The notes under the pieces are model-generated. The model did not search any database, was not told the DNA's origin, and was given only the letters and a program-made list of their open reading frames with translations. A DNA stretch of 64,000 nt from Thiothrix subterranea (GTDB lineage Bacteria > Pseudomonadota > Gammaproteobacteria > Thiotrichales > Thiotrichaceae): the NCBI RefSeq assembly GCF_030930995.1, contig NZ_CP133217.1, positions 3,338,001 to 3,402,000 of the forward strand, written 5' to 3'. Of this stretch, positions 22,803 through 60,577 are shown one piece after another. A program made the translations under genes and the position numbers. Position 1 is the first letter of the stretch. Each line of letters starts with the position of its first letter.

Positions 22803-22810
22803 TGTCGACA
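22803..22810. promoter_or_regulatory. TGTCGACA operator 1 upstream of pckA
   Basis: This perfect 8-bp palindrome in the context ATTGTCGACAGG is the first of three copies in the pckA upstream region. Its centre is 22 bp from the second copy. Confidence 0.6.
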
Positions 22811-22824
22811 GGCTTTTATTAATA

Positions 22825-22832
22825 TGTCGACA
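22825..22832. promoter_or_regulatory. TGTCGACA operator 2 upstream of pckA
   Basis: The palindrome recurs in the context ATATGTCGACAAT, two helical turns from copy 1 and 105 bp (ten turns) from copy 3. Confidence 0.6.
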
Positions 22833-22929
22833 ATGTTGCTATTTATCAGTAAATTTACACGTAAATGTATTCTAATAGTCAACATCGTGCGCTATCATTC
22901 TTTGCCTTCTTACCGTTCATATGACACAT

Positions 22930-22937
22930 TGTCGACA
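22930..22937. promoter_or_regulatory. TGTCGACA operator 3 upstream of pckA
   Basis: The context is ACATTGTCGACACT, 27 bp upstream of the pckA ATG and therefore close to or within the promoter or leader. Confidence 0.6.
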
Positions 22938-22963
22938 CTATACGGCGCTACCGGAGGCGTAAT

Positions 22964-24577
22964 ATGAGTACAACTGCTACACTGGCACAACACCTTGCCA
23001 GTACGTTGGGGCTTAAAAACACCAATAACCTTTACTGGAACCAGTCTTCCCCGGTTCTCTACGAACAAGCCCTCAACCGCAGCGAAGGCAAAATCAGCGA
23101 AGCTGGCGTCTTTGTCGCCTACACGGGTACATTTACGGGTCGCGCCCCCAATGACAAATTCATTGTGGATGACGCTGGCTCACACGATAAAGTGTGGTGG
23201 GGCAAAGTCAATAAAGCACTCACCGAAGCACAATTCGACCAAGTATTAGCGGATGCGCTTCAGTTTTTGGAAGGGCGCGAATTATTCGTCCAAGACTTGT
23301 TGGCTGGTGCAAGCGAAGCCGACGAATTGCCAGTGCGCATTATTTCGCAATACGCTTGGCACGCCCTGTTTGCGCGGAATATGTTCATTCGCCCCGACGA
23401 TTTGAACCGCACCTTAGGCGTAGATGAACCCAAATTCACCGTCATCCACGTACCGGATATGCAAGCCGACCCGGAAAAGCACGGCACGCATTCGGGCGCA
23501 TTCGTGCTCTTGAACCTGACACGCGGGCTGATCTTGATTGGTGGCACGCACTACGCGGGCGAAATCAAGAAATCCATTTTCTCGGTGCTCAACTATTTGT
23601 TGCCACAGCGCGGTATTATGTCGATGCACGCTTCTGCCAATGTCGGCAAAGATGGCGATGTGGCGATTCTATTTGGCTTGTCCGGCACGGGCAAAACCAC
23701 GCTCTCGGCTGACCCAAATCGCGCCCTGATCGGCGATGACGAACACGGCTGGAGCGATCACGGCGTATTCAATTTGGAAGGCGGTTGTTACGCCAAAGTC
23801 ATTAATTTGTCGGCAGAACAAGAGCCGATGATCTACAAAACCACCCAAACCTTCGGCACCGTGCTGGAAAACGTGGTGATGGATCAGGCAACCCGTAAAC
23901 TGAATTTGGATGACAATAGCATCACCGAAAACACCCGCGCCAGCTACCCGATTACACAAATTCCGGGCGCGTTATACCCCGGCAAAGCAGGTCACCCCAA
24001 ACACATTATTATGCTGACCTGCGATGCATTTGGCGTATTGCCACCGATTTCCAAGCTCACCACTGAGCAGGCGATGTACCACTTTATTTCCGGTTACACT
24101 GCCAAAGTCGCGGGTACGGAAAAAGGCGTGACGGAACCAACCGCCACCTTCAGCACGTGCTTTGGTGCGCCCTTCATGGCGTTGCACCCTTCGGTGTATG
24201 CAGATTTGCTCGGTGCGAAAATCAATGAACACGGTGTGTCTTGCTGGTTGGTCAATACCGGCTGGACAGGCGGCGGCTATGGCGTGGGCAAACGCATGAA
24301 TATTCATCATACTCGTAGCATGGTGAATGCCGCGTTGAATGGGGATTTGGATCAGGTTGATACCCGCCGCGATGCGATTTTCGGTTTGAACATCCCGGTT
24401 TCGTGCCCGGATGTGCCATCCGACGTATTGGAACCGTCATCGACATGGGCGGATAAAGCGGCATATACCACGAAAGCGACCTATCTGGCGTCACTGTTCC
24501 ACAAGAACTTTGCGCAATACAGTGCGGGTGTTTCTGCTGCTATTTGCGCGGCTGCGCCATTGCAAGGCAAGGAATAA
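22964..24577 (+). CDS. pckA: Phosphoenolpyruvate carboxykinase (ATP)
   Basis: This 537-residue enzyme converts oxaloacetate and ATP to PEP, CO2 and ADP at the entry to gluconeogenesis. Motifs of the ATP-dependent family are TGRAPNDKF, GGTHYAGEIKKS, the kinase-1a loop GLSGTGKTTLSAD, GDDEHGW and GWTGGGYGVGKRM. A GGAGG box precedes the ATG. Three copies of TGTCGACA lie in the 160 bp upstream, and the same motif precedes the sucB operon. A strong intrinsic terminator follows. Confidence 0.97.
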   Translation: MSTTATLAQHLASTLGLKNTNNLYWNQSSPVLYEQALNRSEGKISEAGVFVAYTGTFTGRAPNDKFIVDDAGSHDKVWWGKVNKALTEAQFDQVLADALQFLEGRELFVQDLLAGASEADELPVRIISQYAWHALFARNMFIRPDDLNRTLGVDEPKFTVIHVPDMQADPEKHGTHSGAFVLLNLTRGLILIGGTHYAGEIKKSIFSVLNYLLPQRGIMSMHASANVGKDGDVAILFGLSGTGKTTLSADPNRALIGDDEHGWSDHGVFNLEGGCYAKVINLSAEQEPMIYKTTQTFGTVLENVVMDQATRKLNLDDNSITENTRASYPITQIPGALYPGKAGHPKHIIMLTCDAFGVLPPISKLTTEQAMYHFISGYTAKVAGTEKGVTEPTATFSTCFGAPFMALHPSVYADLLGAKINEHGVSCWLVNTGWTGGGYGVGKRMNIHHTRSMVNAALNGDLDQVDTRRDAIFGLNIPVSCPDVPSDVLEPSSTWADKAAYTTKATYLASLFHKNFAQYSAGVSAAICAAAPLQGKE

Positions 24578-24583
24578 TGCCTC

Positions 24584-24617
24584 ACGCCCTTCTCTCGCAC
24601 GGGGAGAAGGGCGTTTT
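24584..24617 (+). terminator. Intrinsic terminator after pckA
   Basis: An 11-bp stem, ACGCCCTTCTC (24584-24594) / GAGAAGGGCGT (24604-24614), is followed by T residues. Confidence 0.85.
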
Positions 24618-59156: not shown

Positions 59157-60387
59157 CCAACACCAACCGTACTGGATTTTCGACCAGTTCCTTGATGGTT
59201 TTGAGGAAGGTGACAGCACCTTGACCGTCGACGATGCGGTGGTCATACGAGAGAGCCACATACATCATCGGGCGAATAACAATCTGATCATTGACAACGA
59301 CAGGGCGCTTCTGGATCGCGTGCATCCCCAAGATCGCGCTTTGAGGAGGGTTTAGAATTGGGGTTGATAGCAACGACCCAAAAACGCCCCCGTTGGTTAT
59401 AGTGAACGTACCACCAGTCAGATCGCCCATATCCAGCTTACCTTCACGGGCTTTGGCTGCGTACCCGGCAATGCCGGATTCGATGTCAGCTAAACCCATG
59501 TTTTCGGTGTTGCGCAGGATAGGCACGACCAGACCGCGATCAGATGACACGGCAATCCCAATATCGCAGAAGCCGTGGTAAACAACATCATTGCCATCAA
59601 TCGAGGCATTGATTTCAGGGAAACGTTGCAGCGCAACAGCGGCTGCCTTGACGAACAGGGACATAAAGCCCAGTTTCGCTTTGTGTTTTTTCTCGAATGC
59701 GTCTTTGTATTCGTTACGCAGATCCATCAACGGCTTCATGTCGATTTCGTTGAAGGTGGTCAGCATCGCGGTGGATTGCTTGGCGTACATCAGACGTTCG
59801 GCGATGCGGGCGCGGAGGCGGGTCATGGGAACGCGCTGTTCCATGCGAGCACCGGAGGAAGAAACCCCTCCCGACCTCCCCTTATCAGGGGAGGAGCTAA
59901 GAGGTGTAGCAGGCGCTTTCTGTTCCTCCCCTGACAAGGGGAGGCTAGGAGGGGTTTCTTTCTTCGCAACAGCGGCTTGCACGTCTTCCTTAAGAATACG
60001 GCCTTGCTTGCCAGAACCATCGACATCAGCAGCCGTCAGATTGTTTTCTGCCATCAGCTTGCGGGCAGCGGGGGCGGTTTGTGGTTCAGTGCTTGCTGCT
60101 GGAGCAGAAACGGCGGGGGCAACTTCGGCTTTTGGAGCTGCTGCTACTGCGCCAATGGTCATACGACCCAGCAATTGGCTGCTAATGACGGTTGCACCGG
60201 CTTGCTCAATAATTTCGGTGAGGACACCATCGGCAGGAGCAGGTACTTCCAGTACCACTTTGTCGGTTTCGATTTCAACCAGTACTTCGTCCTGTTTGAC
60301 ACTATCACCGACTTTTTTGCTCCATGTCACCACGGTAGCATCGGCGACGGATTCCGGCAGTACCGGGGTCAGAATCTCACTGCTCAT
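59149..60387 (-). CDS. sucB: 2-oxoglutarate dehydrogenase E2 (dihydrolipoyl succinyltransferase) carrying an in-frame palindromic repeat
   Basis: This 412-residue E2 starts at 60387 behind AGGATG. It has a lipoyl domain ([10 protein letters not shown]..., lipoyl Lys in [10 protein letters not shown]), a subunit-binding domain ([29 protein letters not shown], about 110-145) and the catalytic domain (from [15 protein letters not shown]) with [13 protein letters not shown]. In the second linker (about residues 146-180) about 33 residues rich in Pro, Ser and Gly are encoded by a palindromic repeat (59861-59958). It leads the TCA series. No E1 (sucA) gene precedes it: pnp does. Confidence 0.95.
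59861..59958. repeat. 98-bp palindromic repeat (REP-doublet/MITE-like) inside sucB
   Basis: Outer arms GAAACCCCTCC (59861-59871) and GGAGGGGTTTC (59948-59958) are perfectly inverted. Inside, CCTCCCCTTATCAGGGGAGG (59875-59894) and CCTCCCCTGACAAGGGGAGG (59925-59944) are inverted with one mismatch, and each is itself palindromic. The whole is translated in frame as part of SucB. Confidence 0.88.
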
Positions 60388-60455
60388 CTGCACACATCCT
60401 TTTTGGTAGGTATCGAATAGCATTTCTGGAATGCTTTTTTACTAATCTTGTGAAT

Positions 60456-60463
60456 TGTCGACA
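60456..60463. promoter_or_regulatory. TGTCGACA operator at the sucB promoter -10/start site
   Basis: The context is AATTGTCGACATTA. It touches the last base of the -10 box (60463-60468) and covers the expected transcription start, an ideal position for repression. Confidence 0.65.
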
Positions 60464-60491
60464 TTATAGGGTTTTTTATGCACAAGGTCAA
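60463..60491 (-). promoter_or_regulatory. Sigma70 promoter of the sucB operon
   Basis: On the minus strand TTGACC (60486-60491) and TATAAT (60463-60468) are separated by exactly 17 bp. The expected start is near 60456, giving a leader of about 70 nt before the sucB ATG. Confidence 0.75.
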
Positions 60492-60507
60492 CAAAAAACC
60501 TTCATAT

Positions 60508-60515
60508 TGTCGACA
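60508..60515. promoter_or_regulatory. TGTCGACA operator, middle copy upstream of sucB
   Basis: The context is ATATTGTCGACATAT. Its centre is 52 bp from the promoter copy, about five helical turns, upstream of the -35 box. Confidence 0.6.
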
Positions 60516-60569
60516 TATTCCTTATGTTTGCGCTAAAAACGCTGTCATACAATAACATAAATACAACAT

Positions 60570-60577
60570 TGTCGACA
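60570..60577. promoter_or_regulatory. TGTCGACA operator, distal copy upstream of sucB
   Basis: The context is ACATTGTCGACACC. Its centre is 62 bp from the middle copy, about six turns, and it lies just beyond the pnp terminator. Confidence 0.6.

Follow-up and report, generated by a model that had tools for sequence, protein, structure and literature searches.

Predicted operators of a PrpR/PmiR-related GntR repressor at tricarboxylic acid cycle genes of Thiothrix subterranea

A 64-kb stretch of Thiothrix subterranea DNA (here called the window; G000:C2:3338001-3402000 of a 4.41 Mb genome) contains exact copies of the palindrome TGTCGACA at pckA and at sucB, the head of a putative tricarboxylic acid (TCA) cycle operon. 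Which protein reads this word, and how far does its influence reach? We propose that TGTCGACA, the core of ATTGTCGACAAT, is very probably the operator of a TCA-wide GntR/FCD repressor, GntR-A, whose predicted ancestors are methylcitrate-cycle repressors of the PrpR/PmiR type. Sites, their places, conservation, descent and promoter geometry were computed, and from them we infer binding, repression, operon structure and ligand.

An earlier note on this DNA had reported three copies at pckA, three at sucB, none elsewhere in the window and about one expected by chance. These figures are exact: 100 shuffles of the window yielded a mean of 1.00 copy and a maximum of 3, and none of them reached six. 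All six copies lie between genes, though simple gene calls assign 88.6% of the window to coding sequence. With up to one mismatch allowed, the window holds 32 copies versus 24 expected. Chance, or another property of the 8-mer (which contains the SalI site GTCGAC), might still produce such clusters, and the genome-wide number of TGTCGACA is indeed not raised: 45 copies, below the number extrapolated from the shuffle mean of the window. Fifteen of the 45 are intergenic versus 5.1 expected (binomial p about 9e-5, simple gene calls, assuming that the coding fraction of the window applies genome-wide), so the excess is positional and local and does not lie in the total number.

Most of the intergenic copies are distributed over these places: three at pckA, three at sucB, two in the gntR/sucA gap and one each at mqo, aceA, nqrA and in the aceK/icd gap. 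A regulon joining pckA to the sucB operon, as first suggested, is supported; its limitation to two operons fails, the predicted regulon being wider (sucA, mqo, aceA, icd/aceK, nqrA). ATTGTCGACA flanks 14 of the 15 intergenic copies on at least one side, and likewise 10 of the 30 coding ones. One copy called coding, at glcB, is probably located 5' of the true start, because GlcB of relatives begins at residue 39 of the open reading frame (ORF) used. Another copy called coding, at the 3' end of mqo, stands before aceA; nqrA carries a further copy within its coding sequence, and both copies recur in G003; and ATTGTCAACAAT sits 139 bp 5' of acsA.

The centre distances of 22, 105, 52 and 62 bp had been taken as close to whole helical turns; the values are correct, and the phasing is borne out on a larger sample. 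At pckA, the spacing of 105 bp conceals a degenerate operator halfway, since AGTC(A/G)ACA recurs at +52 in 9 of 11 pckA rows (chance 0.00025 per sequence); a TGTCGACA pair 21-22 bp apart, as at the first two pckA operators, occurs in 12 of 13 genus g1 genomes of our family sample, counted irrespective of locus. In this sample of 60 genomes, in part of which the GntR-A protein was sought, TGTCGACA-N36-66-TGTCGACA is present in 23: 13/13 of genus g1, 1/1 of g3, 9/9 of g5 and 0/37 of other genera. Among 274 genomes of the class, 14 contain any such pair, and the 52-54 bp spacing is confined to G000 and G019. Altogether 107 pair distances, taken from the range of 13 to 105 bp, cluster at 21-22, 52-54, 62-63, 74-75, 95-96 and 104-105 bp, with single values of 37, 77 and 83 bp. 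A circular test at 10.5 bp gave R 0.87 for all of them, and R 0.69 (simulated p 0.00025, best period 10.6 bp) for 16 hand-picked distances, roughly one for each operon and genus, singles included; the latter test is fairer, because related genomes are not independent. Operator pairs are spaced at whole helical turns. With the same genes and spacings recurring in other genera, the shuffled windows never reaching six copies and the reversed-pattern control scoring 0 in the 60 family genomes, chance is scarcely credible as the source of the clusters.

What would a protein bound at these sites do? At sucB, a sigma-70-like promoter lies between two operators, one meeting its -10 hexamer and the other positioned past its -35. 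We scored 31 of 46 listed pairs, many of them probably sucB orthologues: a promoter with at least 9/12 matches is present between the operators in 25, with its -10 in contact with one of them, and 22 of the 31 have a shuffle p of at most 0.014. In three genera the -10 element of the sucB promoter is touched by an operator, and so is that of nuo in G009. Such overlap argues for repression, and the layout is that of a putative repressor which would cover the promoter from both sides. At pckA, no strong promoter of this between-operators kind was found. GntR-A might also bind these sites and chiefly activate: some pairs have no promoter between them, and some sites lie 80-250 bp upstream. These contacts with -10 at sucB and nuo speak against such a role, as does the closest studied relative, which is a repressor (PMC9765439, partial text), and we regard activation as quite improbable.

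The presumed regulator had been placed outside the window, and a candidate, gntR-A, was found there beside sucA, carrying TGTCGACA copies of its own. It encodes a GntR winged helix-turn-helix plus FCD domain protein whose predicted operator is of the PrpR type (ATTGTCGACAAT), in keeping with the FadR-subfamily GntR operator predicted from the palindrome; its binding is likewise predicted. The gene diverges from sucA, and sdhC, sdhD, sdhA and sdhB follow downstream on its own strand. The gntR-A/sucA gap contains five TGT(C/T)GACA sites, three TGTCGACA and two TGTTGACA, one of the five overlapping the first gntR codons; one further site lies within sucA. Because a TGA precedes Met9 in 5 of 18 loci, translation probably starts at this residue, and the overlapping TGTCGACA is then upstream of it. 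In T. subterranea, the operator of the regulator's own gene retains the TGTCGACA core without the full 12-mer ATTGTCGACAAT, which, or its TCAA variants, is found at other GntR-A loci. The order gntR-sdhC-sdhD-sdhA recurs in G009, G013, G017, T. fructosivorans and Thiothrix UBA5583, with sdhB where the stretch extends far enough; the linkage was not seen in six other GntR-A loci examined, nor within the 5.6 kb fetched from G019. All 15 other genomes of the genus that were examined encode GntR-A orthologues (80-99% identity), and those of G017 and G019 are 68-71% identical.

Conservation upstream of pckA, sucA, icd and aceA, which the earlier note had named as a check, is observed in the relatives G009, G017 and G019, examined around their ATTGTCGACA hits. 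In each of them, sites precede sucB, gntR, sucA, mqo, aceA and an aceK or icd-like gene. Sites also precede pckA and glcB in G009 and G017, acs in G017 and G019, a class I fumarase gene in G017, and nuoA in G009 and G013. In G031, where the GntR gene is prp-linked, two sites lie 5' of the regulator, one of them within a 74-codon called ORF; eight more fall inside called genes, and no wide regulon was seen around these sites.

A second reader is conceivable. T. subterranea encodes a paralogue, GntR-B, the local PrpR, which belongs to the same family as GntR-A (41% identity) and differs from it in being adjoined by prpB-prpC-acnD-prpF and in having operators without a CG centre in 3 of the 4 copies read from Thiothrix and g5. 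GntR-B, alone or together with GntR-A, could read the sites, and the TCA genes would then be part of a propionate regulon. Besides kinship, this is favoured by the GntR-A promoter and acsA, both bearing sites of the TGTTGACA/TGTCAACA type that precedes prpR-B; TGTTGACA at the gene of GntR-A is TGTCAACA on the opposite strand. The Thiothrix prpR(B)-prpB-prpC-acnD-prpF locus (L077:7285-13909), however, has TGTCAACA/TGTCTACA-type operators instead of TGTCGACA, and no TGTCGACA occurs in the 15 kb prp locus of T. subterranea, which contains these variants only. Furthermore, G018 and G024 yield B-type proteins only among close matches, and g4 genomes of the family sample are without paired sites; paired sites accompany the A type wherever both were examined (g1, g3 and G019 of g5), and GntR-A itself is located within the TCA cluster. 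We therefore consider GntR-B an unlikely reader. That the operator centre insulates GntR-A from GntR-B is a suggestive idea, which we did not adopt: the GntR-B copy of G014 has a CG centre, and promoters of GntR-A also carry non-CG sites.

GntR-A remains the preferred reader, and its descent can be traced. The best 80 of at least 496 homologues in GTDB genomes were compared, prp genes being named from one member per cluster. A prpB-type gene is present in 71 of these 80 loci and a prpC-type gene in 69; the nine loci without prpB are those of the Thiotrichaceae-type GntR-A proteins, all nine of which lack it. TGTCGACA lies within 400 bp upstream of 59 of the 80, and the usual interval between successive TGT(C/T)(G/A)ACA sites 5' of prp-linked genes is 61-64 or 69-74 bp. 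In a tree of 99 rows, GntR-A forms a single clade (support 100/100) nested among prp-linked rows, and the Thiothrix GntR-B proteins fall into a separate clade; the stem of GntR-A is long and drew long-branch warnings, so its sister group in the tree is tentative. The nearest solved structure by sequence is 7xp0, PmiR of Pseudomonas aeruginosa (E 7.6e-91), together with 7xp1, and the same two entries hold Foldseek ranks 1-2 when protein L154 of Thiothrix UBA5583 is modelled with AlphaFold2 (mean predicted local distance difference test score, pLDDT, 80.8). On these comparisons GntR-A is assigned to the PrpR/PmiR branch of GntR/FadR-subfamily regulators.

Residues D146, D148, H150, H195 and H217 are invariant in GntR-A, prp-linked and GntR-B rows, and at sites 144, 176, 180 and 181, among others, GntR-A and prp-linked rows are each largely fixed, on differing residues, with D172 found in GntR-A only. 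This points to a carboxylate pocket in GntR-A that would be related but altered. The ligand expected for the PrpR/PmiR branch is 2-methylisocitrate or 2-methylcitrate, a ligand of PmiR being named in a paper title; from pathway logic our guess for GntR-A is isocitrate or citrate. PrpR of P. aeruginosa (PA0797) is reported to be a repressor; its motif is predicted as ATTGTCGACAAT, a gel shift was obtained with DNA upstream of prpR, and 2-methylcitrate has been proposed as its ligand (PMC9765439, partial text). The motif, which the earlier note could not match to a described TCA or gluconeogenesis regulon, is already in print as the PrpR operator. No TCA regulon of the GntR/TGTCGACA type was found among the matches listed from PMC open full text, including searches for the word TTGTCGACAA, most subscription literature being outside this scope. 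Operator word and protein family are already known; a TCA-wide regulon built on them was not found in the literature searched.

Several observations weigh against this interpretation. Of the 45 copies of TGTCGACA, 30 lie inside called genes, most of them probably chance matches. Three intergenic copies fit poorly: one between glnL and a VC_2705-type symporter gene (435 bp from the latter), one at 312863 beside ppa/DUF2058 without obvious role, and one at 4189497 without clear gene or role, within an uncalled 123-codon ORF. The lipA gene was downgraded as a target, as its copy covers the start codon (ATG TGT CGA CAA after GGAGG). No site was found at the class I fumarase locus of T. subterranea, and acsA has ATTGTCAACAAT alone, an operator type that also precedes the prp-linked paralogue. 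In the relatives, fabI, rlmL, IS982, a sugar kinase gene and an ABC transporter gene are among several unrelated ones with a hit inside or nearby, probably by chance. The ATTGTCGACA count looked diagnostic in ten chosen genomes and was rejected as a genome-wide marker after 274 class genomes, several unrelated ones having counts of 20-30; raw motif counts are not diagnostic. Many site pairs are orthologous and hence not independent; 6 of the 31 scored pairs lack a convincing promoter, including aceK/icd of G019 and nuo of G013, and the aceK pair of G009 is borderline. Finally, one of 18 GntR-A copies checked, that of T. fructosivorans ATCC 49748 (L153:6001-6711; also L054), is interrupted by an in-frame stop (residue 92) that falls between its DNA-binding domain and its FCD domain; this could be natural repressor loss or a sequencing error.

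In the mechanism that we propose, GntR-A dimers would occupy operators spaced by whole helical turns; at sucB, one dimer would sit just downstream of -10 and another just upstream of -35, and the bound protein would keep RNA polymerase off until a carboxylate ligand freed the operators. This ligand would most likely be a tricarboxylate near 2-methylisocitrate, such as isocitrate or citrate. The predicted targets in Thiothrix and two related genera would comprise the TCA genes sucB-lpd-sucCD-gltA-acnB, sucA, sdhCDAB, an icd-type gene and mqo, and further the glyoxylate shunt genes aceA and glcB, pckA, NADH dehydrogenase (nqr or nuo) and, in some genomes, acs. A tentative but serious possibility is that a methylcitrate-type repressor, its operator word retained, was rewired into a dedicated master repressor of the TCA and glyoxylate cycles that senses isocitrate or citrate, not 2-methylisocitrate, shutting the cycle in lithotrophic growth and opening it on acetate-type substrates. 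The target set, under an unchanged DNA word, would have passed to a parallel pathway whose enzymes are related (gltA/prpC, aceA/prpB), seemingly a clear example of a rewired regulon. If true, carbon flow in sulfur bacteria of the Thiothrix type would be governed by a single switch open to testing, and many natural operators at quantised helical spacing provide material for studying cooperative repression.

Coordinates of predicted operators, promoter and genes (positions within the window unless a contig or locus is named)
Feature	Position	Strand	Remark
pckA O1, operator TGTCGACA	22803..22810		exact word, intergenic
pckA O2, operator TGTCGACA	22825..22832		exact word, intergenic
pckA O3, degenerate operator AGTCAACA	22877..22884		52 bp from O2, 53 bp from O4; TCTAAT precedes
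pckA O4, operator TGTCGACA	22930..22937		27 bp 5' of pckA
pckA, ATP-dependent phosphoenolpyruvate carboxykinase, putative target	22964..24577	+	PF01293, E 5e-219
acnB, aconitase B	51599..54202	-	PF11791, PF06434
gltA, citrate synthase	54232..55554	-	PF00285, E 3e-137
sucD	55574..56449	-	PF02629, PF00549
sucC	56446..57615	-	PF08442
lpd, dihydrolipoamide dehydrogenase	57729..59261	-	PF07992, PF02852; longest ORF, real start probably later
sucB, 2-oxoacid dehydrogenase acyltransferase (E2), heads putative operon	59149..60423	-	PF00198, E 6e-85
sucB O1, operator TGTCGACA	60456..60463		first base on - strand is last T of -10 hexamer
sigma-70-like promoter TTGACC-17-TATAAT	60463..60491	-	11/12 matches, between sucB O1 and O2
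sucB O2, operator TGTCGACA	60508..60515		52 bp from O1, upstream of -35
sucB O3, operator TGTCGACA	60570..60577		62 bp from O2
gntR-A, GntR/FCD protein, 237-codon ORF	G000:C2:2562669-2563379 (L036:5167-5880)	- in L036	outside window; PF00392 + PF07729
gntR-B, local PrpR, Thiothrix	L077:7285-7941	+	followed by prpB-prpC-acnD-prpF

Some neighbouring features deserve mention. The ORF directly 5' of the pckA operators (21359-22738) matches a DDE transposase weakly (E 0.00088, under the curated cut-off), and a hairpin resembling an intrinsic terminator (60583-60610, - strand) lies 3' of pnp and adjoins the operator at 60570. In T. fructosivorans, sucA-gntR-sdhCDAB is found on the 446 kb contig NZ_JAFMPM010000005.1, titled plasmid pTfr446; core TCA genes may reside on a secondary replicon there, or the title may be wrong. 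In G200, another gammaproteobacterium, a TGTCGACA pair (L242:2586-2655) lies about 235 bp 5' of dnaK, one copy overlapping the neighbouring ORF. This genome was considered as a second rewired lineage and set aside: its site pairs are near dnaK, an acyl-CoA ligase gene and PrpR/prpB-sized genes, and no TCA gene was seen.

Control of many TCA genes by one factor is familiar from ArcA and CRP in Escherichia coli and CcpC in Bacillus, whose proteins and operators are unrelated to those of GntR-A. PdhR, LldR and other carboxylate sensors of the FadR subfamily share with GntR-A the GntR plus FCD architecture and an operator of the TKGT..ACMA type, but typically have 3 nt between GT and AC versus 2 here, and their sequence matches are distant only; PrpR is grouped with the FadR-subfamily factors that have two bases there (PMC4494728, partial text). 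The nearest known system is PrpR/PmiR (PA0797) of P. aeruginosa, which resembles GntR-A in fold, in sequence (about 50% identity to the modelled Thiothrix protein L154), in the operator word ATTGTCGACAAT and in having sites 5' of its own gene. GntR-A differs from it in clade-specific residues (for example D172, F176, R180 and L181) and in genomic setting, as it is not linked to prpBC and in Thiothrix heads gntR-sdhCDAB beside sucA, and its predicted sites stand before genes of the TCA cycle, the glyoxylate shunt and gluconeogenesis.

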